A stretch of DNA of 64,000 nucleotides from the NCBI RefSeq assembly GCF_009846525.1, contig NZ_CP024621.1, positions 2,852,001-2,916,000 of the forward strand. The letters run 5' to 3'. Of the stretch, positions 22,148 to 45,630 are shown in pieces. Positions within the stretch are counted from its first letter, which is position 1. Every line of letters begins with the position of its first letter. The notes below the pieces were generated by a model. It made no database searches. It saw only the letters and a list, made by a program, of their open reading frames with translations, and was not told the DNA's origin. The position numbers and the translations under genes are program-made. Source of the stretch: Halomonas meridiana (GTDB taxonomy: Bacteria > Pseudomonadota > Gammaproteobacteria > Pseudomonadales > Halomonadaceae).

Positions 22148-22149
22148 CA

Positions 22150-26436: not shown

Positions 26437-27493
26437 AACTCCATCCTCTCAAGATATGGAGTCTCCGGTAAAGCCGGGGCGGTTCACTACGGCGTCTGCT
26501 TATCCGAGATGGGTCGTGTAGAAGAGTCAGTGGCACCGCTTAAAGCCTGTACCGAAGCAGAACCTAACTATGCACACGCCCATGCGGCTTTAGGCTTCTC
26601 CTACATTAAGCTCGGTGAGCTTGATAAAGCCGAAACTACTCTGCGTAATGCAGCAGACAAGCTACCTGATGACCTATGGATCAACCGGAATCTTGCAGGC
26701 CTTCTGGCCAAGCGTGGCAAACATGAAGACGCTAAGGCCTACTTCGAACGCGCCCTGGCAACTAATCCGCAGGATGCCACCACGCTTTACGGTTTGGCGT
26801 TGAACCTTGAAGAGCTAGGCCCGCAAAGCTACGAGCAAGCCATCGGCAACTATCAGCGCATCATCGAGTTAGAGCCAAACTCTCCTATCGCATCCGAGGC
26901 CAAAAAAGCGTTAAGCCGTTTGGCTCAGGTAAATATGAAGCGAAAGAACGACGGTGGCCTACGGATGGATGCCGTGATGTATATGACGGGAGCATTTGAA
27001 ACCTTCGAGAAGATGGACAAACAGCAACTAGCCACCACGGTATTCGAGATTGCCAAACTGGGCGAGAGCGGCCTGTCCATCAACGACCCGGACAAGCGCT
27101 ACTCTCTTAAGTCGCTCACAGGTGACTTCTCTGGCCTGCAGCTGCTATCGATGATGCATGTCGGCCTGAAGCTGATTGAACCTTCACTGGATTCACAGTC
27201 GGGCCTTGATGCTGAGTATGATGCTGCCAAGAAAATGGCTGGCAAATAATTCACTTCCTGGGCTAGGGGTTATCACTCCTGGCCACTTCCCATAATCACG
27301 CAATGATGGCGTGAACCTGCCGGCTCACTCCCGCAACAATTACAGCTAGAAGAAAGTTCGTTATTGAGGCCACTATCTCTTACGACAGGCCCTTTCTCAC
27401 GCTGGACCTCAGCCGCTGCCTCTCGTATTTATCATTCCCGCGAGCAACAGAGACGAATAGCGGCGATAAGATGCGGTCATGACACCGCACCCA

Positions 27494-30370
27494 TTACTCC
27501 CCCTCAAACTCCGAGCTGCTAAATTTCAGCACGTTGCAGTTCTCTTTGATCGTCCGCTGCAGCGCTTCATCAAACCCGTCAGAACTGGTAGCCTCAATCT
27601 CCACGGAGATCTTCACCTCTACGCCTGTTCGCAGAGTAAACTGTTCGACAATCTCATCAACGACGGTGGCAAAGTCCATTTTGGCCTTTACGGGATCAAG
27701 ACTCACCGTACCGTAAAATTGCTTCTTGGCAATATGAGTAGGAGCAGCCTCTGGCCCAGCCGAACTACCAACGCTTTCTCCAGCGCCCATAGGGTGAGCT
27801 ATTCCACTGCTTCCTACGTCTGAACCACCACCTTCATCGCTTTGGCCAGATGAGTTGTCTGTATTGCGATCAGCAAGCTCTCTGGCGCGCTGGGCAGCAT
27901 CAGCTGCGAGCTTGTCTCGGTAGGCTTTAGCAGCCTCACGCTCGATAATGAGCGCCTCACCATCTAGCCCACCAATACTCCCTTGCCCAAAGGTAAAGCC
28001 AAGATAAGTATCGCCTTCTTTTCCTGAGGCGTAGCCAAAGAAATCCTCCGATGCGACACCTTGGTTCATGGCATTTTTAAATACCTGATCGTTCACCAGG
28101 CGAGGTAGGTAAAGGTAGTGGCAGCAGTCTTGCCATACTTTCAGGGCGCTAACCTCAGTAACACCATCCTTGAAGTACCATTGGTTGAGAATATTGCGCA
28201 GGAAGATTGGCGACCATTCGTAGATCAGCCACTCTTCTTCACGCAGCTTGTTCTCAATCGTGTCTACTAAGTTCGGCGTCGTGGTCGAGACCTGAACCAC
28301 TTCCCACTCCAGCGTTGGTTTGCCTTTTACAAACTCCTCTACTGGGGCCATCAGCCACTTATAAGTCTCACGGATTAACTGCGACAGCGATGAATCTGCT
28401 GCGTCACGGCTTTGTTTGGCCTGCCGCAAGTGCGTCATATCGTGATTCAACGAACCGTTTTCAATGTCTTCTACAATCGACTTCCATGCCAAATAGGTGC
28501 GTCCCTGATCCTTCAAACGACTTACCACATCGAAATCGGCTGCCAGAAAAATCAACCGGTTCTGCTTTTGGCGTGGTTGTTCCCCACGGTTGCGCAAGAT
28601 GTCTTGCGCCGCTTGAAAGGCCTGGTTGCTCTCTGTGCGGCTATAAGCGAACTCCGTTGGCAACACCACCAAACGTGGCCCGATGCCATATTCGTCCGGC
28701 ACATCGCCAGATTGAGTAAATACATGGATGCCCGCAAAGTGGTGTTGGCGTCCCATGAGACGCGTCGTGCGGTCTTTGAGCAGCGGAATCAAAGCATCCC
28801 GTTCATGGATGTTTTGTTTGCGACTTTCCATCTCCTTTCGGAGGTTGGGCTTCGTATCAAACCAGAAGCGATCCTGTTCAGAATAGAGATAATGAAGACG
28901 GTCGCGCAGACGCTTGAGCACGTCTTCAAAAATCCCAATAGACTGACCCGGTTGAACGGCACCCAGCAAGATGCGCTCCTGCTTGATACCTCGGGCCGCC
29001 TGGGTGCTGCTGGAAGCAGCACTACCCAAAAAGATAGTACGTGCAGCACGACGGGCTGCATGCACGCCACCAAAGAGTGCAACATCATTATCAAGCGTTT
29101 GAGCAGCCGAGCGAGGCCCATCTATCTCTCGCTCAATCACCGGCTGCCAACCTCCGGGTAAATAGTGAATGCTCTTATCGCGCACATGGCTGTCTTCTAA
29201 CGGCAGCGACCCCGGCATAATTAAAGCGTCACGATTGCCCGACTCCCACAGTTTATGGATCACGAACGCCATGTACTGAAGCACCCCACGGGTGCGCTGG
29301 AATTTATCCAGCGTCGACCAATCTTCGTAAAGACGGTCGAATACTTCAGGGTGGATCGGATAAGAGCGGCAAAGTCGCTCAAAATACTCGTTAGACTGCG
29401 TCTCGTTGGGAAACTGCGCGGCGTGCTGCCGGTAGAAGTCAGAAAACTGGCGGCTGATACCTTCTATTTCGGCACGCTCACCGGCATGTTCGAACAGGCG
29501 GCGGCGAACAATCTCGAATGCCTCTTCGGTAGCCACTGGCTTCCACACTGATTCTACACGTCCAAAGTACTTCTCAAGGGCTGTCAGCGTTTGCTGGCCC
29601 ATGGTGCCGCCCACCTCAAGCTCAGACTCCGGCAACGAAGCAAGTAGGATGGCATTGGGTACCGCCTTCATTGCCTCAGTCAGCGCTTGAATGAAGCTGA
29701 TATTGCTATCGTAGGTACCTGCAGAATAGGATTTCCCTAGCTCAAACTGACGAATGTAAGCTAACAGCTCGTCTACCAGCACTACACAAGGGGCAGCTCG
29801 CTGCAGCAAGTCTACTAATACCTGTTTACCAGGCGACGTGCCTTGCTCGTGGGATTCCTTTACCAACGCCAGGCCTTCATCACCCAGCAGCTGCCACGCC
29901 AACTCACCCCATAGCGTCGTGACTTTTTGCCCTTGCTTTTTCACCGACTGCTGGCTCGGGGCCATGTTGATACCGTCGATAACGGCTACACGAGCGTGGG
30001 GCAGCTCATGGATACCAGCCTCATCAAGAATAGGTGAAATGCCATGCAGCTTATCGGTAGACGTCTTGCGAGATGCGAGGTGATAGACCGCCAGCATCGT
30101 GTGGGTTTTGCCGCCACCGAACGCTGTCTGCAACTGAATAACGGGGTCGCCACCGTTGCCAGAGAGGCGCTGGGCCACCGAAATCAGCAGCAGTCGCATA
30201 CCCTCGGTAATGTAAGTCCGCGAGAAAAACTTCTCTGCGTCTTGGTACTCTTCAGGCGCCGTGCCGGTTGCTACCTGGGTGATATCCGCAGCAAACTCCG
30301 ATTGTTTGAACAGGCCTTTTTGAACATCCTTGTGAGGCGTGGCGATATCTCTCCAGGCTTTCAATGACAT
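27494..30370 (-). CDS. DUF499-family ATPase, last gene of the nine-gene operon
   Basis: A 958-residue P-loop protein of the DUF499 family, related to PglY/BrxC-type large ATPases of phage-defence systems. The Walker A variant is [11 protein letters not shown] (around residue 81-91) and Walker B is [11 protein letters not shown] (199-209). A Gly/Ser-rich linker lies near residue 850, before a small C-terminal domain. Its ATG overlaps the upstream gene's TAA by one base (TAATG), so expression is coupled. Members occur next to DUF1156 methylases and helicases in defence loci; the step it performs is not known. Confidence 0.85.
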
Positions 30371-32799
30371 TATGACGGCTCCACGTCTTCTTCTACGATG
30401 AATTCAAGGTCATCCACTGGTTGGCCAGTAGGTGAATCTAATAGGCGTCGCCGCTGAACACGCACAGTTGAATGGCGCGTTTTCAGGGTCTTCCACTCAA
30501 TAAACTTTTCCCAGCTGCTAATAAACTGCAACTCAGGCACCTGCTCCTGAAGCGCTACTTCCAAGCCCAGCCGGGTGATGAAATAACGCCCTGTACGATT
30601 ACCCTTCATCTGGCCACCCGCCTTCAAGTTAGCGTGCTGTATCGAATCCAGATGATAGACATAGTAAGGCTGATCAGGCTTGCTTGGTTTCCACTGGGTG
30701 CCCGTCTGATGAAGTTCATTCCCTAGCAGCACTTCAATACTAACGACATTGGCCCAGCCTATAATTTTGCGCTCCAACTGATCATACAGCGCTACAGCTT
30801 TCACCTCATGCAGTGGATAGCGCGATGATTCAGGACACAGGGTATAAAATATCTGTTGTTCAAAATGATACTTAATCCTAGCATCTCGCTGCTTCTGGGG
30901 CACCAAGCCGACCATCACCATGTCTCGGTTAGACTGGCGGCGCTGCTGATAGGTACGATCATCGTAATGATAGAGCGACTCAGTGATGACCTCGCCCGGC
31001 TGCTCAAAAAGGCTATCCAGATACTCCTGAAACAGACTGTTTTTGCGAGACTTGCCTGGCTGCAGCGGTATCGCGCCAATATTGACCTGCTCGATGCTTT
31101 GATAAAAAGGGTGCGCTACAAATTCCTGTTCGTCCTCCGGATAGGGAAACAAGATCACACCACCAATGCTCTTGTTGGCCATTTTGACGGTTTTCTGCTG
31201 CTCTTTCTTGTCTTCCCACAAAATGGCGTCACGGTAGCGATGCAGCTGAGCGATGGTATCTAGTGGCGGCCCGTAGGGTGTGCTTTCAGAGCCAGTAGGA
31301 TACCCCTTTGATCCACGGTCAAAGCGATACTTGGCATCCATGATCACTTTGAACGACTTTTTATCACGACTGCTGCCGAACCCACTGCGAGAGAACTCGA
31401 TAAACTGATCTGGCTTCTGGTCGAACGTATAGGTGTAATCTTTCCTAGGAAACGTGCGGTTAAAATAGATCGCGATGTCATCACCCGTGCCCCGCTGCAC
31501 GAAATTGACGGCCGATTTCTTGCCCTTCTTGAGGCTCACCTTAAAACGGTGATGTTCCAACTTAACAATATCGTTGCTAGCCAAATCGTATTTTGGGTTC
31601 TCCCGCAGCAGCTTCACGGTCTTCAAGAAGCACCAATACTCGTAAATGGTCGCGATGTCCTTATAGTCCATCTTGAACAACGGGTGCTCGGCCATGGTCA
31701 GGCCTTTACGCAACAGCAGAAAGCGGTGATAGAACTCCTTGTACCCCGGCGCCATCGTCAGGGTAGTCGAGAAGAACATCTGATGATTAAAAGTACCCAC
31801 TTCAGCGAACATTGGACTTCTGAGGCGGCGCCGCAGGTGCGATTTGCTACGCTCCAGCGCTTTGACCTCTAGTTGAACCCGCTGGCTATCCAGGCCGCGG
31901 CCTCTATTTAAGTGGCGAACGGTACGCTGAATCTGGCGCAGGATATCGGTGATTGCCCAGGCAACGAAGCGGTTTTCTTGGGTGTCGTAACTTATGCGCT
32001 TGTGCTGCTCGGTAAGATGCGAAAGCTGCACACCGGGCGCTACCGACAGGCCACCGCCACGACAATAACGGTCTGGGCGCTGTGTCGCCGCCTTGATCGC
32101 TTGAGGTGTCGCTCGCTTCACTCGGTGAACAGGCTTCACTCTCGATTCTTTACGCAAATCCGATTTGGGTGAGCGAAGTAGCGTGTCCAAGCTCTGCTCC
32201 AAACTGTGGTAGAGCGCTTTGAACAGATTTAGCCACTCTGAAGTGAGCTGGTGGTAGGTCGAACGCGGACGCGTCGAGGCAAACGTCTTAGTAAACGCAT
32301 CGAAGGCCAGTGAGTAGAGAATTTCACTGATCTCATCCAGCATGGCCGGAAAGTCATCTTTGTAGTCCAGCTTCTGGGGAAACACCTCACTATCTAAGCC
32401 AAACAGCACCTTGCTATTTGCATCACGGATCTCAAAGCGCGTCAGCCCGACGCTATTTTCCAAGTTCGTGGTACCCGTCAAGCGTACCTGACCATGCAAC
32501 AATCTCGACCGAACCCGTTTCTGGTACACCCCATTCACATAAAGCGCTAACGGAGGTTCGCACCGGCAACTTGGCCCAGGCTCAAACAGCCACTCCAGCT
32601 GCTGCCACTCGAAAAACAGTGGCGAACTCAGCGGCTGCTCTAGCGCTGACTCCTCCGTATTGAGTGACAAGCCGTGCACGTTAAAACGGGCGCGTGTCTC
32701 AATGTGTCGCTGGGCTTCAATGGAACGCGGCAATGTCACTTCGCTCACAGCGAGCTGGCAGATAGTACCGTCAGGGTGGTCAAAACAGAGCACGGTCAT
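30370..32799 (-). CDS. DUF2357/McrC-like PD-(D/E)XK nuclease
   Basis: An 809-residue protein with DUF2357 features ([17 protein letters not shown] about 271-287; [14 protein letters not shown] about 385-398) and a PD-(D/E)XK nuclease core, KPDQFIEF (D464) then [10 protein letters not shown] (D488, K490). Unlike its homologue at 22150 it has no zinc ribbons; the C-terminus instead has an extra beta-rich domain. It follows the McrB-like gene by 6 bases and should be its nuclease partner. The cut substrate, modified DNA or something else, cannot be told. Confidence 0.82.
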
Positions 32800-32805
32800 A
32801 TCAAA

Positions 32806-35322
32806 TTAGAGCCAAAACGACGTGAAGCCGTCATCATGGAAGCGTTGTAACATAAACAGCAGCTTCTTGACGCTTCTGGGGTAGCGAGTGTTCTGCGGGT
32901 TGACCTCCTTCTCAATAACACTGTACTCAGCGTCTTCCTCGAGCGGCGTGTTGGCCAGTAAGCTTAGTAGGCCTATCATTACCTTGAGCACGCTTAGCGA
33001 GCTGCCCTGGATACGAGGCAGCACTTTCTGCATCAGCTGGAAATCCATGGCGGCGTCGGTATCAAAGCCTTCCAGGCTTTCTAACGCCTCTTCCTGATGT
33101 AGAGTAAGATAGAAAGCGACCTCGTCACGTACCCGATAGCCAAAATGCAGCCCAGCCGGTTCGAGAATACCGTTGACCTGCATTAGCATCTTCATAGAAC
33201 TGGCAAGCGCTTTTTTATGGGCATCGCTAAGATCATTCGAATTGAGAAACGGTGCCCTAAGCGCATCAGCATAGACGCCAGAAATCGGCATCACATCACG
33301 CTCTGGGTTCACCCACGCCAAATCGATATCGTTCATTTCAATGGCGTTGGCGCGGTCCAACACCTTACGACTGAATGCATGGGTAGATTCGTCCATATTC
33401 ACCGTGCCCACCACCATCAGATTCTGCGGCAGATAAACCGGGCGACCGCCATTCACATCGGCACGGCTGATCAGCGGCTCAGTGACGATAACGTCATCAC
33501 TGTCACGCTCTCGCGTCTCGATAAAGCTCAAGAATTCTGAAAAGTAGTGCTCCACACGAGCCAGGTTCATCTCATCCAGAATCACGAAGTAAAGCTCATC
33601 AGGGTGCTCAATGGCGCGTGCCATCACATCCAACAACGGCTTAGTCTCGAACTTGCCCTGGATGTTGGCATAGCCGATGAGATCGGAGCTGTCGGCCCAA
33701 TCCGGGCGCACAGCGATTAGCACACAGTGGTCAGAGTCACCATAGCCAATGGCTTTAGCAAACTGACGCACCAGCTGTGTTTTACCGGTACCCGAGATGC
33801 CCGCCAACATTGCCAATGGCTTGGTACGCATACAGAGGTAGAAATTGGCGACCTCTGCCAACGAATAATGAAAGCCCTGGCTAGCCATATAGGCCTTTAC
33901 GCGGGGCAGCCACTCGTTGGCCGAGGTTTGGGTGATCGCAACCGGTAGGCGGCGCTCCTCGGCTTCTTCAAGAGAGCTGCTTTCTTCAGTGGCCTTATCT
34001 ACTTTCTCGATTAGATCGTCGGGGGCCGGCAGCCAGCGCTGGAGTTCATCGGGCAACGCGACAGAGTGGCCATTCAGAAGAATCGCTAACGCCTCCCAGG
34101 TGAACTCGAAGAGATACCCCTGATTCCCGGTGCCATCACGATTGTAAGGACCACGTACATCAGCCAGGGCTCTTTGCAACAGCGCTTGCTTCTGCCGGAT
34201 CACTTCTATGGTGACCGGCTGCTCTAACTGAAAGAGAACCTTCAGATCGACGCGATTCCCATCACCACGCCATTCGTTATCGACGTCACCGTGATGCGGC
34301 GTAACGAAGGGCATTGACTCCGCTCGCGAGATTGCTTGAACCCCACCTGCCGCGTGGTGAACAACAATATCTCCCGGCTTAACGTTACACACGGCTTTCC
34401 AGTGGTTAAACGAGCGGCCACCCTTTCCTTCGAGCGGCGCCCACAGGTAGGCCAGGCCCTGGTCGGGATTATAGGTTTTCCCCTGCATGACATACCAAAC
34501 GCGGGGTTCATGCTGCTGCTCTGGCTCTTCTTGATCGCCTACATGGGCGCGCAACGCCTGATAGCAAGTCTGCAGCTGCAAAGCGACCTCTTCTTCCCGC
34601 GCGAACACCTCGAGCAATAGGTTAACCCGCTCCAGGTTATTCTTGGCAGCATTGGCACCAACCTCCGGCCCAGAAATGTAGGAATGTTCACCACTACCAA
34701 ACGTTTTCCACTGCCAGCCCGGCGGCGGGTGCTGCAGTGACCGGACTTCGATGCAGACGAACTCAGGATACTCACCGCTGACCTCAAAGGCCTCACCCTG
34801 ATGGGTGAAGCGGCTAACATGACTTTCCTCATCGTATTCGGCACGGATCAGAGTATCTTGAATAAAGCCAAACAGCACACGAGCATCGCTGTTATTGACC
34901 ACGAATACCGGGGCGCCGCGCTTCAGTTTGGCAAATTTCTCGCGGTTCCAGTAAAAGCGGTTCTGGTTGGCCGAGAACAGACGCTTGAAGTTTTCCTGTA
35001 CCAAAGGCGGTTTCTTCACCTCATAAACCATCACCGTCAGGTTGGTATCACCGAGCTGACGCGGGTTACTAACCACCGCAAACTCACGTTCCTTAAGCGC
35101 TTCCACAAAGGGTTCATAAAGCGCCTGTTCTAGCTCTTCTTCATCAACCCGATACTGTTTAGTCGTTGCTAATGCCTCTGCAATTAATTGCTTAGGGTCA
35201 AAGCGACGACCCTTGTACAGGCAAGAAACGCGCTCACCAGGCGGTATTGGCTGAGTGCTCGCATCGATGGTGCGGATCACATCGGTGCGCGTTAGCTGCT
35301 GAATAGCCTGCTCAATGCTCAT
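32806..35322 (-). CDS. McrB-like AAA+ protein with EVE-like reader domain
   Basis: An 838-residue protein (ATG 35322, AAGGA upstream). The N-terminal 270 residues have no family I can name. Residues about 275-375 (VWYVMQGKTY, FNHWKAVCNVKPGDIVVHH) look like an EVE/PUA-type domain, which in other proteins reads modified bases. The AAA+ core has Walker A GISGTGKT (508-515), Walker B VILDEMNLARVEHYF (from 580) and NMDESTHAFSRKVLDRA (642-658). As in the 20000 gene, NxxD is replaced by NMDE. It overlaps the previous gene by ATGA. Likely a modification-sensing motor that activates the DUF2357 nuclease. Confidence 0.83.
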   Translation of the reverse strand: MSIEQAIQQLTRTDVIRTIDASTQPIPPGERVSCLYKGRRFDPKQLIAEALATTKQYRVDEEELEQALYEPFVEALKEREFAVVSNPRQLGDTNLTVMVYEVKKPPLVQENFKRLFSANQNRFYWNREKFAKLKRGAPVFVVNNSDARVLFGFIQDTLIRAEYDEESHVSRFTHQGEAFEVSGEYPEFVCIEVRSLQHPPPGWQWKTFGSGEHSYISGPEVGANAAKNNLERVNLLLEVFAREEEVALQLQTCYQALRAHVGDQEEPEQQHEPRVWYVMQGKTYNPDQGLAYLWAPLEGKGGRSFNHWKAVCNVKPGDIVVHHAAGGVQAISRAESMPFVTPHHGDVDNEWRGDGNRVDLKVLFQLEQPVTIEVIRQKQALLQRALADVRGPYNRDGTGNQGYLFEFTWEALAILLNGHSVALPDELQRWLPAPDDLIEKVDKATEESSSLEEAEERRLPVAITQTSANEWLPRVKAYMASQGFHYSLAEVANFYLCMRTKPLAMLAGISGTGKTQLVRQFAKAIGYGDSDHCVLIAVRPDWADSSDLIGYANIQGKFETKPLLDVMARAIEHPDELYFVILDEMNLARVEHYFSEFLSFIETRERDSDDVIVTEPLISRADVNGGRPVYLPQNLMVVGTVNMDESTHAFSRKVLDRANAIEMNDIDLAWVNPERDVMPISGVYADALRAPFLNSNDLSDAHKKALASSMKMLMQVNGILEPAGLHFGYRVRDEVAFYLTLHQEEALESLEGFDTDAAMDFQLMQKVLPRIQGSSLSVLKVMIGLLSLLANTPLEEDAEYSVIEKEVNPQNTRYPRSVKKLLFMLQRFHDDGFTSFWL

Positions 35323-35915
35323 GCTTCGTTCCTTGTCACCTGGCAATCTAACCCAGCGTCTCCCGGGTTCTGCTCGTTCACGACAAACCCTTGGACTCCA
35401 TAGGGCGCCAGAGCAGTCTCCATTTTTGACCGCAAACGAGTCGCCAAACGTTTGAAGTCTCGCTGATTCCAGGTCAGCAATAAAACAACCTTAAGCGTTG
35501 ACGCTTGTGGCCAAACGATGTGAAAACTTGCTAGCTCAGGATCACCTTCCCGCTGGGCGACGGTGAGCGCCGCCAGGGTATCGCGGAGCTTTTCCTCGAC
35601 TTCATCAACGATAAATGGCTTGCGTCGTGCCACCTGCACCTTTGGCTTAAGCCCTTGTTGCTCAACCCACTGCCTGGCCTGGATAACCTCACCTGGGTCC
35701 GCCCCTGAGAGCCGCGGACGGTTTTCTGGCTCGTAGCCTTCGCAATCTTTGACTTCGACCCACCAGTGGGTGGGGCCACCATTGTGGGCCAGTATATCCA
35801 CTCCCTTAAGGCGACTCTTCATCCGCTGGCGATACCAGGAACTGTCATCGTATTTAGCCAGCTGCCAGCCCTCGGGAAAGCGGAAGGTCAGTTGGCCCTC
35901 TGTCACTTCAGGCAT
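35319..35915 (-). CDS. small PD-(D/E)XK-like protein
   Basis: A 198-residue protein of no family I recognise. I chose ATG 35915, overlapping the ATPase gene by 8 bases. KGVDILAHNG (D40) followed by THWWVEVKDCEGY (E54, K56) fits the PD-(D/E)XK nuclease core, as in many small restriction-type or VRR-like enzymes. The rest is alpha/beta with strands FHIVWPQ and LKVVLLLTWN. It sits between an OLD/RecF-like ATPase and the McrB-like gene; an ATPase-nuclease pairing is plausible. The nuclease call rests on three residues. Confidence 0.55.
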   Translation of the reverse strand: MPEVTEGQLTFRFPEGWQLAKYDDSSWYRQRMKSRLKGVDILAHNGGPTHWWVEVKDCEGYEPENRPRLSGADPGEVIQARQWVEQQGLKPKVQVARRKPFIVDEVEEKLRDTLAALTVAQREGDPELASFHIVWPQASTLKVVLLLTWNQRDFKRLATRLRSKMETALAPYGVQGFVVNEQNPGDAGLDCQVTRNEA

Positions 35916-36957
35916 TGACCAGCTCCATCTCACGGTCGTATTGGGCCAACTCCTCATCAAGACTCACCAGATGCTCCAAGCCGCTGAGGCGGTCGGCCAC
36001 CTCGATACGTTCAACCAACCCATCACCACGAACCAGAGCAAAGTAACGCTGCGCCACTGCCTGCTGGCGAGTGAGGAGATCAAGCTCCTTGAGCAAGAAA
36101 TAGCTGTGGGTGGCAATCACCACCTGAATGCCCTGCTGGCTGAGCGTTACGGCTGCCAAAGCCACCAGCTTGATAAGTTTGGGGTTGAGATTGGCCTCCG
36201 GTTCATCCCAGAACAGGTAGCCCTTATCCAGCAACGAGCCGGTGGTGATCAAGCGGGCGAGCATCGCCAGCTTACGCAGCCCTTCTGCCACCAACGGCAT
36301 TTCCAGGTTGCCTTGCCCAGGAATACGCAGATAGAAGCGCCCATTCTTGTCCAACACCACCTTGCCGCCCATCGCCTCTTCCAAGGGTGCCACCAGCTCG
36401 GCGACCGTCTTTTCGCGACTGCCCTTGACGGCAGGGGCACCCAGCAGCTTGCACAGGTCGATATGGTGCTCTTCGATATCCACGTGCCGGTTTTCGTAGA
36501 GCGGCAACAGCCAATGGTATTGGCTTAACAGTTCGCGTGTCGGCATAAAGACCGGCGCCTTCTCCTGCCAGGCGCTGGGTAAGCGGTCGATCTTAACCTC
36601 AGTCTGTGAACGGGTGCTGAAGCTGAAAGCGGTATCCAGCACAGCCTGCTCAAAGGCGACGGAGACCCTACAGGTCTGCGCCCCCTGGCGGCGGCTAGCC
36701 AGCCGCCCCAGAGACTCAGGCCGAAACACCTTGATCAGCTTGTCGGCAATGCCCTTCTGAAGCAGCGACTTGGTGGGGTCGGCTACGCTCGGCTCATTAG
36801 CCTGCTCGTAAGCGTTAGCGATGACGCTGTAAGCCACCTTGAGCAGATGCGATTTGCCGGTACCATTTTCGCCCACAATAACGTTTAGCCCCGGCGCGAA
36901 ATCCAGTCGCGCCTTGGGAAAAAGCGTGAAGTTATCCAGTTCTAACCGCTTCAGCAT
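35908..36957 (-). CDS. RecF/OLD-like AAA ATPase
   Basis: A 349-residue ABC-type ATPase of the AAA_15/AAA_21 kind: LKRLELDNFTLF at the start, Walker A GENGTGKS (29-36), the signature region LVAEGLRKLAML, and Walker B LFWDEPEANLNPKL followed by VIATHSYFLLKEL (switch). Similar ATPases act with small nucleases in OLD/Gabija-, Septu- and retron-type defence. It begins 9 bases after the DUF1156 gene stop and overlaps the small PD-(D/E)XK-like gene, its most likely partner. Confidence 0.8.
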   Translation of the reverse strand: MLKRLELDNFTLFPKARLDFAPGLNVIVGENGTGKSHLLKVAYSVIANAYEQANEPSVADPTKSLLQKGIADKLIKVFRPESLGRLASRRQGAQTCRVSVAFEQAVLDTAFSFSTRSQTEVKIDRLPSAWQEKAPVFMPTRELLSQYHWLLPLYENRHVDIEEHHIDLCKLLGAPAVKGSREKTVAELVAPLEEAMGGKVVLDKNGRFYLRIPGQGNLEMPLVAEGLRKLAMLARLITTGSLLDKGYLFWDEPEANLNPKLIKLVALAAVTLSQQGIQVVIATHSYFLLKELDLLTRQQAVAQRYFALVRGDGLVERIEVADRLSGLEHLVSLDEELAQYDREMELVNA

Positions 36958-36965
36958 GCTGCCTC

Positions 36966-39776
36966 CTAAATATCTAAGCCACCCTGTTCGCCAGCATGCC
37001 CCGTTTCATGGGATGCCGCTACGATGGCATGCCAGGAGCCAATTAGCTCGTTGTAGGCGCGTGCTTCCTCGGCCCATTTCTTACGCTCACAGAGGGTATA
37101 GAGATGGTACGACAGCTGACGAATTGCCTCGCCCTTCTCCGGCATCTTGGCCAGCAGTTCACCGGCAGCGGATTCACCATGGTTCTGCAGGCGGCGGATC
37201 ATCTGATGGCAGGCTTCCCACACCGGCGTGCGCTTGTCGGTGGTCGGGTCCCATTCAGATTGGTACTCGCCCCACTTAAGCAGGCGCACCTTGCCGCTAC
37301 CGGATTCGATCACGCCGGCTTCCCTGACGCCATCTGCTGTGGTGCCCTTAGCCTGTGCAAGCACCTGTGCCTCACCAAACGGCCCTGCGCTCCAGGCGTA
37401 CTGATCGAACCAGCTGGCACAGAACTGAGTATCAGCATCGAAGTTGCCGGAATCAGGGCTCAAAAACTCGGTAATAGCGCGGTTGATCAGTACCAGGGCA
37501 TCGTGGACGCTCATCTTTGAGCCATCTTGATTCAGCACCGCCTCGTACTTAGAGTAAATAGCCATACCCGGCCCGATCGCCGCCTGGGCGAGATCCACTG
37601 GAGCAATGGGTGTTTGGCCTGTCTGGCCGCCAATCATAGTCTCCAGGGCTTCAGGCATTTCCGTTCGCAATTGACGCTGGAAGTCACGGCGAGAAACGGA
37701 CTCTGCAGTAGTTTCACGCTTACGACAGACTAAGACAATGGAAGACGCAAGCGCATTAGCACCTTGGTTACGTGATCGATTTTCACGTTCTGTTCTTAGA
37801 GGCCATGTCCCTGTTATTATCAAACCAGACTCTACAATTGATTCTATAAATGTTTCCCAACCCTTGGAAGCCGTGCTTCCACTTTTTGTTTCTGACTGTT
37901 TAAATGCATAATAAATTGTCATTGGATAAAATTCAGACGATGCACTTGCGAGATTTCTAAACGTATTTTTCATGCCATTCATGAAAAAACTTTCAGACTG
38001 CTCCTTACCACCATGCCGGAACTGGTTTGCAACTAGCTCTTCTTGTTTCGGAGTTAGCATTGTAGGTACAAGGTTAGGCGATATCTCTTTCAAAGATCTA
38101 CGAAGCCATATATAAAAAAAATCGGATAAATTAGAATACGGTATATTATCGTAGTATGGTGGATCTGTAGATATGACAACATTTTTTATCTCGGAGCAGG
38201 ATGCTGCATCAGCAAAAAACGCCTTTGAAATTGAAACAGATCTGGTATCACAATTTTTTAGACCGTCAGCCGTTGTTGTCAACATAGACAAAAAAGATCC
38301 ACTAGGACCGTACAATATATTTGTCTCAGAGTAATCCCAGTTCATGGGAATCGCATGCTTAGAAAAAAGATGGCCTGGACACTCAACAGAAGGCATCCAT
38401 GCAGAAAGGGAGTTTGCTCTATTAGCTGTTTTTGATATAGAGAATGCTATATAAAGGCATATTGCATTTGCATAATTTTGAGCTTCATGCTTCAGTTCTG
38501 GATGAGCAGAATTAAAATCATCAATTATTATTGGCTTTATATTTTTCAACTCATCACACATATACGTCAGTGTCTTAAGCTGCCTATTAGTGAAAAGTTT
38601 TTCAAAACGATCCATACCATATACAACTGAGTTTGTGCATCCTGCCCAATGGTCTATTTCAGCTTCTGGATAGTCGCTAACTTCGACACATTTTGCAATT
38701 TCTTCATGTTCTTTATCAGCAGGATAATAGCCTCTCCCTTTTTTCTTTTTAGTCACAATTGCAATAAGTTTATGGCCAATTCGACCAGACCTGCCCTCCT
38801 CTCTTATGTATTTAAGAGGAATATTAACCCCCGACATCAAACATGTCGCGCCTTTTCTTCCAACAATTCCTTGTTGATCTGGCTTCTCAAATTTATTTAC
38901 AATTTCAAAGTACCAACTTCTTTTTTCGCTATCAACTATCGGCTTTAAGTATGCACCATCCCCTTTTGTTGATAGGGTAAAGGATTTTATGAGAGGAACA
39001 TCACAATCTGAAAACGCCGGATTCGGGCTTTTTACGGTTCTAGCCCAAATCCAGCATATAACGTCTTCAGAAACTGAATCTTTCTCGTTATAGTACTTTG
39101 GGTAAATATCGCATAATGCTTCCCGAGCTTTGTCTAATAATAACCCTCCATAAAATATGATGTCTTGTGCCAACCCTTCATAACCATGAAGATTCTCGAT
39201 TGCTACTTGGCCTTTTGGTAAAGAAACTGGTGAAAATTTCGAAAATTCCGCAGGTATCTCAAGACTTGCTTTGCCAAGCATCACAGGTATTGGGTTTAAA
39301 TCTGAAGCATAAACGTCTAAGCCTAAACGACTTGCCTCTAACGGAATAGCTCCACCTCCTGAGAAAGGATCCCAAAGCGTAAGATTCAGGTCTTTTTCGT
39401 CAAACTTCAATCCGTTCAACTCGCATGTTTCACGCCAACTTTCCACAATTAGTGAGCGAGCCTTAGCCAACACATCAAAGTTATTATTATTTTTCCATTG
39501 ACAAAGTTCTTCAAGGACACCAAAAATTTCATTTCTCTTTTCCTCACAGATTTTTTTGGGTTTGCCTTTAGACCATCCTCTTACACCGCCAGGATCGTTG
39601 ACCATTTGAGAGAAAATAATTGCGCGAGCAGCAACCAGTGGTCGACGTGCCCACCACATATGCAGCGTTGAAGGATGCCCCTTCCTAATAGATTTTTCAG
39701 CGGATGCAGCTTGATTAATTAGATCTAGTGGTAGCGCCACTTCGATCAGCTTTTTGGGAGATTTAATAGAGTGCAT
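36966..39776 (-). CDS. DUF1156 DNA methyltransferase
   Basis: A 936-residue DNA methylase with the DUF1156 N-terminus (STLHMWWARRPLVAARA, residues 36-52). SAM-binding motif I is DPFSGGGAIPLEA (136-148) and the catalytic motif is STDPPYYDNIPYS (536-548), as in amino-methyltransferases. DUF1156 enzymes are usual partners of DUF499 proteins and SNF2 helicases in DISARM-related loci, where methylation marks self DNA. Codons for about residues 1-680 are AT-rich while the C-terminal 250 are GC-rich like the neighbours, so the catalytic and recognition part seems to have been exchanged. Confidence 0.87.
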   Translation of the reverse strand: MHSIKSPKKLIEVALPLDLINQAASAEKSIRKGHPSTLHMWWARRPLVAARAIIFSQMVNDPGGVRGWSKGKPKKICEEKRNEIFGVLEELCQWKNNNNFDVLAKARSLIVESWRETCELNGLKFDEKDLNLTLWDPFSGGGAIPLEASRLGLDVYASDLNPIPVMLGKASLEIPAEFSKFSPVSLPKGQVAIENLHGYEGLAQDIIFYGGLLLDKAREALCDIYPKYYNEKDSVSEDVICWIWARTVKSPNPAFSDCDVPLIKSFTLSTKGDGAYLKPIVDSEKRSWYFEIVNKFEKPDQQGIVGRKGATCLMSGVNIPLKYIREEGRSGRIGHKLIAIVTKKKKGRGYYPADKEHEEIAKCVEVSDYPEAEIDHWAGCTNSVVYGMDRFEKLFTNRQLKTLTYMCDELKNIKPIIIDDFNSAHPELKHEAQNYANAICLYIAFSISKTANRANSLSAWMPSVECPGHLFSKHAIPMNWDYSETNILYGPSGSFLSMLTTTADGLKNCDTRSVSISKAFFADAASCSEIKNVVISTDPPYYDNIPYSNLSDFFYIWLRRSLKEISPNLVPTMLTPKQEELVANQFRHGGKEQSESFFMNGMKNTFRNLASASSEFYPMTIYYAFKQSETKSGSTASKGWETFIESIVESGLIITGTWPLRTERENRSRNQGANALASSIVLVCRKRETTAESVSRRDFQRQLRTEMPEALETMIGGQTGQTPIAPVDLAQAAIGPGMAIYSKYEAVLNQDGSKMSVHDALVLINRAITEFLSPDSGNFDADTQFCASWFDQYAWSAGPFGEAQVLAQAKGTTADGVREAGVIESGSGKVRLLKWGEYQSEWDPTTDKRTPVWEACHQMIRRLQNHGESAAGELLAKMPEKGEAIRQLSYHLYTLCERKKWAEEARAYNELIGSWHAIVAASHETGHAGEQGGLDI

Positions 39777-39785
39777 CGGTATTCC

Positions 39786-40430
39786 TTATCCGCTCACCCG
39801 GCACAACGTGTGCCGAATGGCAGTAACAAACGGGAGGTGTTCAATAGCATCAAGCTCTTCATCGAGCAGCGCTTGCCACTCTTCATCAGAAAATTCGTCA
39901 ACTAACGACCAAAGTTCTTCAGCAGTGTCTATGTAACCAGCCTTAGCGGCCTTTCGCATTCGGCGCAAAGCACCGTGCTCAGCATCCAGGTTAAACACCC
40001 GCAGGGTTTCTTCTGCCCTGCACTGTTGCTCAGCATTGAGCCATTGCCGTGGATAAATCGTTCCGTCAGGAACAAATACAAAAAAATCATCAGGATCATC
40101 AATATCAGGTTTTAGTAGGTCAGCCGCATGGTAATCCCCTGCGTCATGATCCTTGTGCTTACCGCAGGTCTCTTTACGGTCACACGAGCCAAAGAGATTG
40201 TCCCACTGAAACGTCACGCGCGGGTCTCGACCTTTCTGAACAAAATGTTCTACATGACGCCGACCTTGCTGAATCTCTGCCTCACAGTAGGCACAGCGGT
40301 TTCCCTGCATGGCTTCAAGTGCCAACCAGAGCTCAGCGCGGTCGTTGTTGTTCAGGTCGCGCCAGTTATCTCGGCCATGCTGGTAGTTTTTTAGGCAACC
40401 AGGCGCGTGGCCACGGGTGAGAAAGTGCAT
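39786..40430 (-). CDS. ptuB: PtuB-like HNH endonuclease (Septu)
   Basis: A 214-residue HNH nuclease of the TIGR02646/PtuB kind. The zinc/HNH core shows CAYCEAEI (C46, C49), RRHVEHFVQKG (59-63 motif HVEHF) and NLFGSCDRKETCGKHKD. In Septu, PtuB is the effector nuclease held by the PtuA ATPase. It follows ptuA by 2 bases and precedes the DUF1156 gene by 9. The same family serves retron Eco7 (Ec78), but no reverse transcriptase is present here. Confidence 0.87.
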   Translation of the reverse strand: MHFLTRGHAPGCLKNYQHGRDNWRDLNNNDRAELWLALEAMQGNRCAYCEAEIQQGRRHVEHFVQKGRDPRVTFQWDNLFGSCDRKETCGKHKDHDAGDYHAADLLKPDIDDPDDFFVFVPDGTIYPRQWLNAEQQCRAEETLRVFNLDAEHGALRRMRKAAKAGYIDTAEELWSLVDEFSDEEWQALLDEELDAIEHLPFVTAIRHTLCRVSG

Positions 40431-40432
40431 CC

Positions 40433-41866
40433 CTAGCGGCCCTCTTTGTCACGCCGAGCAGGCTTGCGCCGTTTAAGCGCCTGCAACCTGATTAACCGAT
40501 CGCACTCCAGAATATGTGGATGATGCTTTCCATAGTGCGCTTCCAACAGCGAGCGTAACTGGATTGCCTTATCGTGGGACTCCAAACCTTGCTGAATCAG
40601 CGCCATGTAGTGGCTTAGTTGGCGGACAATCTCGATATTCGGTAATGGGTCGGTACCCATGATCTCTGCCAGCAAATCTGAGCTTGCAACCCCTTGAGTC
40701 TGACGAGTCACTGGATGAACCAAGATGCGTTGCTGGTCACGTTCCTCATCCCACTCCGACGCCAGGATTCGAATGCATTCAGCCGGAATGGTACTAAGCA
40801 CCTGAGGGCTGTGCGTAGTGACGGTGAATTGCACTTGTGGAAAAGCCTCTTGCAGCTGCTGCAGCACCACCTGCTGCCAGCGTGGGTGCAGGTGCATATC
40901 CACTTCATCAATCATTACCACGCCTATCGTTTCCCGTGCGGCATTGACGCCCATGTGTGGGTTAAGTTTGATGCAGCGGTAAGCAATGTCCCCCACCATG
41001 GCCAATACGCTGCGAATGCCGTCGCTGAGCTGTTCGACATCGAGAGTGCCTTGATCCTCATGATGCAGAATCAGCGATTTCTCGCGGCTGATGCTGTATT
41101 CCAGCGTATGCCACCCGGTGATGGGCTTTAAAAAGGTATCGATCGCCTGCTGAACCACACGGATGCGGCCCTGAGCTGCGCTCAGCTCCTCGTCGTTGGA
41201 ACGCCCCTCCATCTTGTTGATCTGCTGCTCTCGCAGGCTCTCATAGGCCCAGATAAACCACTCTTTGAAGTGCTTGTAAGAAGAAGCTGGGTCAAGGCAG
41301 TTCACATAGCCAAAGGTTCGAATATAGAAATCAGGATCCTGCGTATCATCTTTCCCTTTTGGCTTTTCAATCAGACGCTTTTGCGCCCAGAGCCTTCCTG
41401 TACCGTAGTAACCAAAAACTGGCAGGTCCAGCGTAGGTTTGTCGGGGCTCCTAATCTGAGCTTGAACGGCAGAGCTCCAGTTTTTCATCTTACTGGTATC
41501 GCCATCGTCTTTGGTCTTGGTCGCCTTGGCTTCACTATCACGATAGCGTACCCAGGTATCAGAGCTTCCCATACCGAAATCACCAGTGAGCGCCACTTCG
41601 GTGGGTAGCTGCCTAGCCATATCTCCATTTGGTAAACGAACCAAGCGAACATCACTAATAGCGATAGCATTGCCCGGCGGATTAAAAGCTGGCCGAGCAA
41701 GATCAAAACTACTAACAAATGGCCAGAGACCAATACGAATGGCATCCAGCAGTGCTGACTTACCCTGGCCGTTCTCTGCAACAAGAACCGTCAATTGTTC
41801 GTTGAGTTCCAACTCAAGGTCGGTGAAGCAGCGAAAATTCTTGATACGTAGCTTGGAGAGTTTCAT
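40433..41866 (-). CDS. ptuA: PtuA-like ATPase (Septu)
   Basis: A 477-residue ABC/OLD-type ATPase: [17 protein letters not shown] at the start, Walker A AENGQGKS (30-37), signature [17 protein letters not shown], and Walker [16 protein letters not shown] followed by [13 protein letters not shown]. Size, motifs and the adjacent HNH gene match PtuA of Septu. Its ATG overlaps the helicase stop (ATGA), so the Septu pair is translated as part of the larger operon and is not a separate insertion with its own promoter that I can see. Confidence 0.87.
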
Positions 41867-44800
41867 TCGAAGACACCCACTGGCGCTGCTTTAGAAAGCA
41901 GCTCCTCCAGGTCATAGTTGATACTGGCCACGCCAAAGTCAGGTTCACTTGTAAAGGGCTTCTGCACGTAATAAGGCCCTTCTACGCTATCGCCCTCCAC
42001 GATGACGATAGCCAGCCAAAATTTGTCGGCTTGGTTAAGGCCATAGATAATTTCGTTACGAGAGACAGTAATGGTGCTCTGCCCTTTTGCACGCCCCTTC
42101 ACCTCAATATGGCGATCCGGCAGGATCGAGCCATCCGTATTGGCTGGAGGGCGGGCGGTCACATCCCAGCCGCACTTCTGACCGGAAACATCAAACACTT
42201 GGTTGCCCATGGCGCGCTCGGCGTCCATTACCGCTTGCATGGCGAGCTGTTCGATGCGGGCGCGAGCCTGGGCATCGACGCTGAACTGAGTTTCGCCTTG
42301 GCGCTGGGCCAGCAAGCCCTGAGGAATCACCAGGGCGCCGCCGATCACCACCGGCGTGCTGGAGACCACCTGCTTCATGGCATCGAGCTCGCTGCGGCGC
42401 TGGTTGAGCCGCTCGGTCAGTTCATCCACCCGCCTGCGCGCCATCTCTGGCTGCATGCGCGGCTGCTTTCCGGCCTTCATATCGTCGGTGAGCTTGATGT
42501 AACGGTCAGACCAGTAATTGATCTCCTTGACCAACCGCTCGTTGACGGCATTGAGCACCTTGTCGGCGTGGCGTTCGCGGCGCCCCTTCACCTCGCGGAA
42601 GTGCTCTGGCACTAGCGCCTGCACAGCGTGATTGAGCGCCAGGGCCTCTAGGTCGCCAGTGACCCATGGCGCTTTGAGCACATCCTGCACCAGGTTGAGT
42701 TCATGATCATCGATGGGCTGCATGTCCAAATGCGGCGCCCAGCCCGCATGAGTCGCTCTGCCCTGCTCGTCGATTTCCACGAACTGTAGGCGGCGTGAAA
42801 CCACCCTGGGCGAGCCGTTGATCTGTTTCTCAACTTCACGCACCGAGTGATCGACCATGAACAGCACTTTAGGCTCAGTGCTGTCGTCGTTGGGGTCTAC
42901 CAGCACGGCGCCCTGCTTTAGCTTGGCCCTGTGGGCCTGCAGCACCAAATCGGTCGTGGCATGCATTAGCGGGTGCATGGGGTGAATCAAATCAGCCATG
43001 GGCTTGCCAGGCAGGCGTACATGCTCTTTCTCAAAGCAGATACGCTCATATTTTCTCAGCACTGGCGTTCTACTTTCTCCAACGATGCGATCCCGCTCAC
43101 GTATGGCGGCGGGAACGTGGCGTACTTCATAGCGCCCTTGCTCTCTTGGGCGCATTTCGCCTCGCAGCCCTTGAAATGCTTCAGTGAAAAAAGCGCGGAT
43201 AAAGTAGGGCTGCAGCTTGCGTGCTTCGGCCTTCTCCATCTCCTCCTTCACCGCGTAGAGCTCTTCCAGGCCCATATGCTGTTCGACCAGGGCATTCCGG
43301 CGAATGATCTCGCGCAAGTGGTCGGTATCCAACGCACCTTCAATCACCTGCTCTAACCGCGACTTCACTTCGTCGGACTCGCCATAGCGAATGGCTTCTA
43401 CTAACAGGTCTTTCAGCGAAGTATTCTCAAACGCCTCACCAAGAATATCGAAGACCTTGCCACCAAGCGCGCTCTTCTCCACCTCGAGCTTGTCGAAAAG
43501 CTTCTGAAATACGGCACCTTCACGCGTCTCATTAGCCACCAGGTTCCATAGGTGGCAGACCTCAGTCTGGCCGATGCGGTGAATTCGCCCGAAGCGCTGT
43601 TCCAAGCGATTAGGGTTCCAAGGCAAATCATAATTCGCCATCAAGTTGGCATTCTGTAGGTTAACGCCCTCACCGGCGGCATCGGTGGCCACTAATACCA
43701 GCACATCCGGGTCGTTGCGGAACTGCTCTTGGGCTTTACGGCGCTCATCACGGTTAGTGCCGCCATGGATGGTGATCACCGCCTCAGGGCAGCCCAACAG
43801 GCTGCGGATGCGATCAACCAGATAGTTGAGCGTATCTTTATGCTCGGTGAAGATGATCAGCTTTCGGCGACTGCCGCCGGACGTGTACATCTCAGGGCTG
43901 TCTTGTAGCAGGTGCGAAAGCTCTTCCCACTTGCGGTCGTTACCAGATGCGACCAGCTGCGAGGCCTGCTCCTCTAAGTCCTGAAGAATCAGTATCTCAG
44001 CCTCCAATTCGGGCACAGTCTCCGCGGCGGTGGCCTGATCCACTACCTGTTCGGCGTAGAGCTCGTACTCCTCGGCGCTCAGTTCTTCATCTAGCTCGTC
44101 TAAATTATCTGGCAGTTCAATCTGCTTCTGTACCGCATAAGTGCCCAGGGTGGAGGCGACTTTCCCTTCATGAATAGCCTGACCACGAGCCATGAGCTTC
44201 ATCTCATTAAGGCGGTCTTCCAACTTGCGACGGCGCCGCTTGAGAGACTGGTAAATCGCCTCTGGGCTGGACGCCAACCGCCGCTGCAGCTGAGTTAGTG
44301 CGAAACCTACAGTGCCCTTTCGTTTACCAGAGAGCGCATCGGCTCGGTTCATTTCGTTGCGAACGTAGTCGGTCACTTGCTCGTAGAGCGAAGCCTCTGA
44401 GTCGGAGAGGTCGTAATTAGCGGTGTAGGCGCGGCGCTCAGGGAAAAGTGGGGTGCCATCGAACTTGAGCAGCTCTTCCTTAACCCTACGCTGCATCATG
44501 TCGGAAACATCGACCTTGTGGGCACCTTCGCGGAACTTGCCGTAGAAGCGGTCGCTATCAATCAGCGATAGCCAAATCTGGAAGTCTTCTTCCTTGCCAT
44601 TATGCGGGGTGGCCGTCATCAACAAAAAGTGGCGGGTAATCGAGCCTAGCAGCTCACCGAGTTGGAAGCGCTTGGTCTTGTTGATCTTATTGCCGAAGTA
44701 GTTGGCCGATAGCTTGTGGGCCTCATCGACAATTATCAGATCCCACTCCGTATTGGCGAGCTTCTGTTGATAAAGCTCGTTGCGCGAGAGCTGGTCCAAG

Positions 44801-45414
44801 CGGCAGATCAGTTGGTTTTGCTCATCGAAATAGTTACCAGAAGCGCACTGCTCCTGTTTCTCGCGGCTAAAGATTTCGAACTGCACGCCAAATTTCTCTA
44901 GCAGCTCATCCTGCCATTGGTCGGTCAGCCCGCCGGGCGACACGATGAGGATGCGCTTAGCATCGGCACGCATCAGCAGCTCGCGAATCAACAGGCCCGC
45001 CATGATGGTTTTACCAGCACCGGGATCATCAGCCAGTACAAAACGTAGCGGCTGACGAGGTAGCATAGCCTCGTAGACAGCAGATATTTGGTGAGGGAGC
45101 GGCTCCACGTTAGAGGTATGAACTGCCATCATGGGATCGAACAGCGCCGCCTGGCTGATGCGGTAGGCCTCTAGGCCCAGCTTGAAGTCAGCGCCGGGGG
45201 CGTCAAAGGCCCAAGGACGCCCAGCCTGGGCTAGCGAGAGGTTGGGCTCGTTGTCACGAAACAGCATCTGCTCATGAACCGCGCCCTGGCTATCCTTGAA
45301 GTAGATGGTCAGCGCATCGGCGCCCACCGGCACCACGGCTACAACTCGTACCACCTCATCAGGCTTGATGCCGCGAACCTGAGCATCCTGTTTGATCTCT
45401 TCCAGCTTCAGCAT
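41863..45414 (-). CDS. SNF2/RapA-like helicase with C-terminal DUF3883, first gene of operon
   Basis: A 1,183-residue superfamily 2 motor. ATG 45414 is preceded by GGAGG; the in-frame upstream ATG lacks a site. Walker A is [13 protein letters not shown] (128-140), motif II DEAH (230-233), motif III-like [10 protein letters not shown], and the C-lobe has [15 protein letters not shown] and [13 protein letters not shown]. The end carries a DUF3883-type module ([18 protein letters not shown]), a fold related to PD-(D/E)XK with E-V-K. It resembles DrmD-type helicases of class 1 DISARM and related systems, which probably travel on invading DNA. Confidence 0.87.
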
Positions 45415-45477
45415 GCAGCTCCCTCCGCAAGTCGGCTTTTGCCGTTTCTTCATTTATCGTCGATCTGGGCCAGCTGG

Positions 45478-45503
45478 AGTATTGCCCCTACTGGGCTAAT
45501 ACT
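45478..45503. promoter_or_regulatory. imperfect palindrome upstream of the nine-gene operon
   Basis: AGTATTGCCC and GGGCTAATACT face each other across CTACTG-type spacer, with one bulged base. It lies 64 bases before the helicase start, on the operon's leader, and could be an operator or leader hairpin. No regulator gene accompanies it. Confidence 0.4.
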
Positions 45504-45597
45504 AACTGATACGCTGCATTTCTTCAGCGCTCCCACAGAAACTCAGCCGCTGCTCACTTAATTGCCTACAAAAATCAAAAAAAATACTGTGACAAAC

Positions 45598-45619: not shown

Positions 45620-45630
45620 TATGGGGCACA

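Follow-up and report, generated by a model that had tools for sequence, protein, structure and literature searches.

The three-gene Hma operon was introduced in 2021; it often accompanies Septu type I and occurs elsewhere too (PMC8565338). Such loci have since been named Type-1 DUF499-centred, bacteriophage exclusion (BREX)-related systems, and their gene neighbourhood was traced to papers from 2013 and 2020 (PMC12839542, published in 2026). According to the latter source, the phage-defence role of the HmaA helicase was confirmed by a study (Liu et al. 2024, Halomonas meridiana). Here we analysed a stretch of 64,000 nucleotides from H. meridiana (contig NZ_CP024621.1, positions 2,852,001 to 2,916,000 of the forward strand; the whole stretch is called the window in the following). 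Its positions 27494-45414 hold nine minus-strand open reading frames (ORFs) in a single tight run of about 18 kb, as read from the ORF list and the translations. Our preferred reading, to which we assign a probability of roughly 0.7, is that this run is an Hma (Type-1 DUF499 BREX-related) operon located on an integrated island, that it carries three independent defence modules in two slots between the core genes and is probably co-transcribed, and that its HmaB is chimaeric and sets the specificity of the system.

The core trio of the operon is Hma, consisting of the helicase-nuclease HmaA, the methylase HmaB and the DUF499 ATPase HmaC. The three corresponding PADLOC models were matched nearly over their full length and on one strand, with scores between 1477 and 2239 bits (Table 1). 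We assigned the core to Hma because these models outscored those of two other candidates. An initial annotation of the operon had regarded the core as DISARM-related, which did not hold: the DrmD model reached only 395 bits on HmaA, and no Drm model for the other eight proteins was among the matches listed. The antiphage trio of DUF1156 protein, DUF499 protein and phospholipase D (PLD)-helicase was rejected as well, with PADLOC scores of 94, 173 and 112 bits. The NCBIfam models of the same trio gave 210 of the 1200 bits needed for DUF499_antiphage, 122 of 1000 for DUF1156_antiphage and 166 of 1100 for phospholipD_antiphage. HmaA contains the Walker motif DPGAGKT, a DEAH motif and EVKG at residue 1117, together with the Pfam domains Helicase_C, SNF2-rel_dom and NOV_C (residues 1067-1157). 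It thereby combines an SNF2 helicase with the additional C-terminal PD-(D/E)XK domain by which Type-1 DUF499 BREX-related loci are recognized. In HmaB, the motifs DPFSGG and DPPYYDN accompany the DUF1156 domain, and an AlphaFold model of modest quality places an alpha+beta region near residues 228-352. HmaC has a P-loop by motif pattern. The core families are therefore common to this locus and to Hma as described in PMC8565338, whereas here three passengers extend the three-gene operon of that paper, and HmaB is apparently chimaeric. The same paper labels HmaB a 5-methylcytosine (m5C) methyltransferase; the HmaB studied here has a DPPY motif, and PMC12839542 labels the family N6. The tripartite core and the helicase with a C-terminal restriction endonuclease, both reported for Type-1 DUF499 loci (PMC12839542), are likewise found here, and HmaB is predicted to have the recognition insert that is reported for their methylase.

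All nine ORFs and their junctions could be re-derived, in agreement with the overlaps of 1-8 bases and gaps of 2-9 bases given by the initial annotation. From HmaA onwards, the junctions are a 4-bp overlap with PtuA, a 2-bp gap between PtuA and PtuB, a 9-bp gap before HmaB, an 8-bp gap before HEC-02B, overlaps of 8 bp (HEC-02B/HEC-02A) and 4 bp (HEC-02A/McrB), a 6-bp gap between McrB and McrC, and a 1-bp overlap of McrC with HmaC. Start codons were chosen at 45414 (HmaA), 35915 (HEC-02A) and 35322 (McrB), the ORF list having longer forms for all three. Family matches reached E 1e-50 or better for eight of the nine ORFs and 1e-15 for HEC-02A, and the motif patterns searched for were found in all nine proteins. 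Nine long ORFs with family matches in one tight run leave no issue of chance for the operon as such. The earlier family calls were upheld for DUF499, DUF2357 plus PDDEXK_7, AAA_5, DUF1156 and SNF2/Helicase_C/NOV_C by Pfam, and for PtuA and PtuB by PADLOC.

Table 1. Features of the Hma operon, its host island and two related loci with inverted HmaB copies. Positions refer to the window unless a locus is named.
Feature	Position	Strand	Evidence
Host island	15668..55859		46-bp tRNA-Met repeats, tyrosine integrase
HmaA, SNF2 helicase with C-terminal NOV_C/DUF3883 PD-(D/E)XK-like domain	41863..45414	-	PADLOC HmaA 2239 bits, ORF residues 14-1190
PtuA, Septu ATPase, slot HmaA-HmaB	40433..41866	-	PADLOC PtuA 599 bits
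PtuB, Septu HNH nuclease, slot HmaA-HmaB	39786..40430	-	PADLOC PtuB 321 bits
HmaB, DUF1156 amino-methyltransferase, apparently chimaeric	36966..39776	-	PADLOC HmaB 1477 bits
HmaB residues 1-700, foreign composition, methylase and target-recognition insert	37677..39776	-	GC, identity break
HEC-02B, OLD/RecF-like ABC ATPase, slot HmaB-HmaC	35908..36957	-	PADLOC HEC-02B 530 bits, motifs
HEC-02A-like small PD-(D/E)XK-type protein, slot HmaB-HmaC	35319..35915	-	HEC-02 partner models 54-56 bits
EVE-McrB-like AAA+ protein, slot HmaB-HmaC	32806..35322	-	AAA_5 29.5 bits, PDC-M26A 171 bits
EVE-like domain inside McrB	34090..34500	-	phmmer match to 6yex_A
McrC-like, DUF2357 and PDDEXK_7 nuclease, slot HmaB-HmaC	30370..32799	-	Pfam 175.6 and 106.9 bits
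HmaC, DUF499 AAA+ ATPase	27494..30370	-	PADLOC HmaC 1572 bits, Pfam DUF499 102.8 bits
Second inverted HmaB and recombinase region	L104:5495-12907, L112:5578-12991		

The passengers are distributed over two slots, with Septu between HmaA and HmaB (slot A-B) and both a probable HEC-02 pair and an EVE-McrBC pair between HmaB and HmaC (slot B-C). PtuA and PtuB are adjacent, no other gene lies between HmaA and HmaB, and no reverse transcriptase is present, as is the rule for Septu type I. PtuA shows a P-loop and the motifs IDEVD and THS; PtuB scored 183.6 bits with the NCBIfam PtuB model (cut-off 150) and has HNH-type residues. For the following two genes, initially read as a RecF/OLD-like ATPase and a small nuclease-like protein, the families stood, and they could be named more exactly as HEC-02B and a protein with weak matches to the HEC-02 partner models. 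HEC-02B has a P-loop by motif pattern. HEC-02A reads VD...EVKD, and the pattern VD...ExK occurs in all seven near-full-length rows of its alignment, one fragment of 62 residues being set aside. In McrB, which has a P-loop, residues 283-419 match residues 3-138 of 6yex_A (E 5e-10, phmmer), which we take to be the EVE-HNH enzyme VcaM4I; the Pfam EVE model was not reported on McrB at E<=5. Matches to the solved McrB chains 6hz4 and 6ut6 were weak (E 2e-4 to 6e-4). McrC has a DAKYR motif in addition to its two Pfam domains. By domains, an AAA+ McrB with a specificity domain next to a DUF2357-PD-(D/E)XK McrC makes this pair a type IV McrBC. It is not a standard PDC-M26 system, since PDC-M26B scored only 20.5 bits (PDC-M26A: 171), compared with 947 and 1370 bits for PDC-M26A/B in a second, standard McrBC-like pair on the opposite strand of the same island (20000-24681, GC content 45-46%).

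Each of these modules has a counterpart in the literature. Septu in Hma systems has been cited as an example of embedding (PMC12255303), and HEC stands for Hma embedded candidates (PMC10855318), that is, defence genes located between the genes of a host defence system, as observed here, where the HEC-02 models match. Back-up effectors composed of OLD-ABC proteins and HNH or PD-(D/E)XK nucleases, comparable to the present ones, are known from Type-1 DUF499 loci (PMC12839542). The fusion of EVE with an McrB-like AAA+ protein and the DUF2357-PD-(D/E)XK McrC correspond to type IV EVE-McrBC (PMC7641849, PMC11090510); unlike here, a placement inside an Hma operon is not mentioned in the accessible parts of these papers. 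One of the two reports that a standalone EVE gene accompanies DUF499 operons in archaea. The nine-gene set itself is a loaded example of a published arrangement and may already be listed among the Hma embedded candidates. The company of Hma and Septu (PMC8565338), the embedding of Septu and the HEC families had all been published. What is new here, beyond the published Hma arrangement, is the apparent break inside HmaB.

To examine the modularity of the operon, we read 95 loci related to it (own locus numbers, L); genome contigs supplied 80 of them, plasmids 4 and further genomes 11. The 80 contig loci were kept out of at least 590, ranked by similarity to the HmaB of the window, with flanks of about 10 kb for most loci. 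Contig ends, genes on the other strand or missing genes made slot A-B unmeasurable in 18 and slot B-C in 13 of the 95 loci. Among the 77 measured A-B slots, 23 were empty, 3 held 150-449 bp and 51 held at least 450 bp; the respective numbers for the 82 B-C slots were 44, 2 and 36. Both slots could be measured in 71 loci; in 16 of these the two slots were empty, and in 23 each slot held at least 450 bp. PtuA was located in slot A-B in 15 of 77 loci and in slot B-C in none of 82, and HEC-02B (above 100 bits) in slot B-C in 9 of 82 and in slot A-B in none of 77. On a FastTree phylogeny of HmaA, the Septu state changed at least 11 times (72 rows) and the HEC-02 state at least 6 times (the 68 rows with slot B-C measured). 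Ten other passenger proteins of these Hma loci were scanned and include matches to the models of HEC-01, -05, -06, -08 and -09; the passenger listing omits ORFs shorter than about 100 residues that matched no protein of the window.

The full nine-family set occurred in none of the 95 loci. The nearest ones were L122, a sister operon from the same genus, and L038 from a Halomonas metagenome-assembled genome (MAG). L122 has a different Septu allele as well as McrB and McrC. Its HmaC runs past the end of the stretch read, and its other genes read open except HEC-02, where HEC-02B is split in two frames (reverse strand, 11063-12228) and no HEC-02A match was found. In L038, slot A-B is empty, and HEC-02B, HEC-02A, McrB and McrC form a four-gene block. 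L121 combines a Septu pair (PtuB weak, 24 bits) with HEC-02B and lacks McrBC. Among 369 genomes of the class, relatives at E 1e-30 or better were found in four others for McrB and in three others for HEC-02B; six of these seven genomes were examined, G424 being left out. L168 and L169 carry McrB and McrC, none of the remaining seven operon proteins being matched within the 20 kb read, L170 and L171 carry McrB alone, L172 has HEC-02B next to a 30% helicase match, and L173 has HEC-02B alone, its genome (G326) containing an HmaB piece on a separate small contig. No megablast match was obtained for the whole operon DNA in Escherichia coli genomes or for 30370-41900 in plasmids.

Since the slots of relatives are vacant or hold other genes, the locus appears modular rather than an obligate nine-gene machine. 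The initial annotation had rightly seen a tight run that joins the DUF499/DUF1156/SNF2 core with Septu and EVE-McrBC, and its exact set indeed did not recur in the 95 loci read. Its proposal of a single composite system, in which one methylase serves several nucleases, was not borne out, given the varying passengers and the 16 loci, out of 71 measured for both slots, that had neither slot filled. Nor do the parts appear to form an obligate unit: separable modules, named in advance as the observation that would speak against this claim, do occur in relatives (L168 and L169; L122 with HEC-02 apparently broken). The idea of a composite system peculiar to this genome was likewise weakened by the survey.

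Some passengers of the relatives are recorded here for their own sake. A family of 393-587 residues was found in either slot (L049, L063, L069, L089, L103, L109 and L110), its member in L069 showing a weak match to prokaryotic Argonaute (56.6 bits). Another family of 1,400 residues without annotation occupies slot A-B (L116:4006-8214 and L126:1991-6241). In the Thermus plasmid loci L144-L153, the genes located between the Hma genes vary from strain to strain and include a Fic protein, HicAB, a RelE-like protein and a TnpB-related protein. Those T. thermophilus loci that were read encode the helicase on the opposite strand.

The most conspicuous feature of the operon resides in HmaB. Compared with L122, both HmaA and HmaC (over the part read) are 99% identical, and HmaB residues 701-936 are 93% identical; residues 1-700 show 46% identity. 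The DNA match to L122 breaks within PtuA at 41712 and resumes in HmaB at 37763, short or weak pieces aside. The composition changes as well: GC content and GC content at third codon positions (GC3) are 39.5 and 30.9% for residues 1-700 and 57.9 and 64.1% for residues 701-936. Identity of the N-terminal part does not exceed 51.1% in any of the 94 loci compared (the one remaining row of the 95 had too few aligned residues), and its end branch has a length of 2.61, that of the C-terminal part 0.045. The in-frame junction lies between residues 681 and 700 (window 37677-37736). In the predicted structure, it separates the final strand of the methylase (677-686) from a C-terminal region composed mostly of helices (696-926). 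The underlying AlphaFold model was used for secondary structure only, as it has a mean predicted local distance difference test score (pLDDT) of 70.3 with the methylase core partly below 50, and a predicted template modelling score (pTM) of 0.53. The genome of the window has one HmaB match, a single full copy. Judged by composition and identity, HmaB looks like a chimaera, presumably an active one, in which the resident C-terminal domain has received, by an in-frame fusion, a foreign methylase/recognition part. With this part swapped and HmaA and HmaC kept, the operon has probably switched its target motif, its restriction machinery remaining unchanged.

A similar decoupling was seen among the relatives. 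We compared the segment corresponding to window HmaB residues 201-530, delimited from motifs and PMC12839542, as recognition segment in 83 loci including the window, each having all three core proteins at 80% length or more (L146, where the helicase is annotated in two pieces, was omitted). Of the 149 pairs with HmaA identity of at least 78%, 144 had their lowest value, among the six parts compared, in the recognition segment. Eight T. thermophilus plasmid loci (28 pairs) have HmaA at 98.5-99.6% and HmaC at 98.4-99.6%, and a recognition segment with a mean of 84.2% and a minimum of 76.4%. Three Rhodococcus pairs (L155-L157) have HmaA and HmaC at 98% and the segment at 54-63%. At the DNA level, HmaB of the Thermus loci L147 and L150 is a mosaic, with three 150-bp bins at 78, 54 and 86% and the rest at 93-100% (HmaA 98.7%, HmaC 98.6%). 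Such blocks, in loci that otherwise diverge by about 1%, are more readily explained by allele exchange than by a domain that simply evolves fast. Nearly fixed HmaA and HmaC with a varied recognition part point to HmaB as an exchangeable specificity subunit of Hma.

Phase-variable specificity loci, such as invertible hsdS and the BREX gene pglX, contain inverted partial copies, repeats and recombinases. A comparable arrangement, with HmaB as the gene in question, was found in two of 109 loci, within the available stretches: L104 from a Gemmatimonadetes MAG and L112 from an Acidobacteria MAG. Each has a second HmaB copy in inverted orientation, with most of the C-terminal domain missing (residues 4-778 of 968 in L104, about 261-810 of 996 in L112), and two tandem tyrosine recombinases adjoin this copy. 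The recombinases of the two loci correspond one to one (362 and 438 bits), and elsewhere in the 95 loci only L063, L108 and L119 gave matches at E 1e-10 or better, with at most 50.3 bits. The pair is not specific to Hma, similar tandem pairs adjoining other genes on both plasmids inspected. The HmaB copies are 66-69% identical as proteins, and against this background exact inverted repeats stand out: one of 53 bp in L104 (residue 749), and one of 59 bp and another of 53 bp in L112 (residues 791 and 282, respectively). Window residue 700 corresponds to residue 734 in L104 and 767 in L112, and the repeats near the C-terminal domain begin about 15 and 24 residues further on. An HmaB piece in L100 was not confirmed as a second copy. 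By this architecture, the L104/L112 arrangement is likely a methylase-specificity switch. HmaB exchange, inverted HmaB and the present passenger set are not mentioned in the accessible text of PMC12839542, within a literature coverage that excludes preprints and most subscription journals.

By its motifs, HmaB is predicted to methylate an amino group, most likely adenine N6, at a motif picked by the recognition insert. HmaC and HmaA would scan DNA and destroy molecules unmodified at this motif; as in type I restriction or BREX, it would be HmaB that lends them their specificity. In this predicted division of labour, EVE-McrB/McrC would act on modified-base DNA via its own sensor, and Septu PtuAB and HEC-02 could provide ATPase-nuclease back-ups, again with own sensors. 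It seems to us about an even bet that HmaB generally acts as the exchangeable Hma specificity subunit, which sets both the self-mark and the HmaA/HmaC target. The C-terminal docking domain would then stay fixed and the methylase/recognition part be exchanged as one block, through horizontal recombination in the genome of the window and through a built-in DNA-inversion switch in some lineages, and the Hma locus would be a platform on which target and passengers can be changed separately.

Several observations weigh against the preferred reading as a whole. The promoter and terminator scan gave no signals above shuffled controls, and HEC-02A and McrC match PADLOC models only weakly. The slot counts favour small slots and related loci because of the ranking by HmaB similarity and the limited flanks (about 10 kb). 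A general slot rule had to be dropped, since two other passenger families occupy either slot (four times A-B and three times B-C for one, three times each for the other), so that slot preference is not general. The HEC-02B frame split in L122 could be a draft error. A quickly evolving recognition domain is expected for any methylase, and fast evolution is less excluded in Rhodococcus, because the HmaB profile drops and climbs gradually in two pairs whose HmaA and HmaC DNA is 94-95% identical. The inverted copies are known from one assembled locus each, both of them MAGs. For the N-terminal part of HmaB, no donor was found among 94 loci, 390 genomes of the order, phage records, viral contigs and 388 genomes of the phylum (best identity 51.1%); of 73 plasmid records with HmaB matches, 18 were fetched and the N-terminal part was compared in four (L117-L120). 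In approximately unbiased (AU) tests, a grouping of this part with L122 (p 0.34) or with L122, L038 and L121 (p 0.41) was not rejected. Therefore, the claim of an import rests on composition, the sharp junction and branch length.

These observations have to be considered together with three other explanations. The N-terminal part of HmaB might have diverged in place by fast evolution, without any import, as the missing donor, the unrejected resident grouping in the AU tests and the variable recognition segments of most pairs would allow. Against this, the whole methylase part beyond the recognition segment is at 39.5% GC (GC3 31), the break at residues 681-700 is in frame, and the HmaA and HmaC of the sister operon are 99% identical, which makes divergence in place very improbable. 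Almost as hard to believe is one obligate composite system in which all nine genes cooperate and the methylase shields self from all nucleases. Tight, overlapping junctions along 18 kb and searched motifs kept in all nine genes are what such a system would show, and the block from HEC-02B to McrC does recur in L038 and, with damaged HEC-02, in L122. Yet core-only loci are common, passenger combinations differ within one genus (the window, L121 and L122), HEC-02 is apparently broken in the sister operon, and L168 and L169 have McrB/McrC without an Hma gene within the 20 kb read.

Ordinary crowding in a defence island, with modules side by side and neither shared expression nor selected slots, has more to recommend it and is nevertheless unlikely in our view. 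Defence genes are known to cluster, the same island holds another McrBC-like pair and insertion sequence (IS) elements, promoter and terminator signals are at chance level, and some passenger families use either slot. Crowding does not readily explain passengers that are inserted between core genes in the same direction with junctions of 1-9 bp, nor the separate slots of Septu (15 to 0) and HEC-02 (9 to 0) in the sampled loci. We thus prefer the Hma operon with independent, embedded modules and a chimaeric HmaB.

The value of the locus lies in a natural experiment on HmaB, in which near-identical HmaA and HmaC are paired with very different recognition parts. If HmaA and HmaC did not take their specificity from HmaB, such a change would be expected to put the DNA of the host itself at risk. 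Self/non-self discrimination by Hma becomes directly testable through this variation. If the loci with inverted HmaB do switch, some bacteria would alter their Hma target in a reversible way, with an effect on the genome-based prediction of Hma-linked phage resistance.

The operon is in a 40-kb integrated genomic island, as read from its repeats and integrase: exact 46-bp direct repeats, identical to the 3' part of a tRNA-Met gene, are located at 15668-15713 and 55814-55859, and a tyrosine integrase gene at 54776-55774. Upstream of the operon lie an LprI family gene (45631-46044) and then a GC-rich hairpin at about 45600-45617, which was read by eye and is absent from the list of the automatic scan. 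The backbone of the island (46105-53206) encodes RadC, YqaJ, ERF, DUF932, YfjJ-like and DUF3987 proteins. Two further mobile elements are found inside the island, an ISL3 transposase gene at 18304-19581 and an IS3-type element at 25220-26436 with an ALIL pseudoknot match at 26045-26161.

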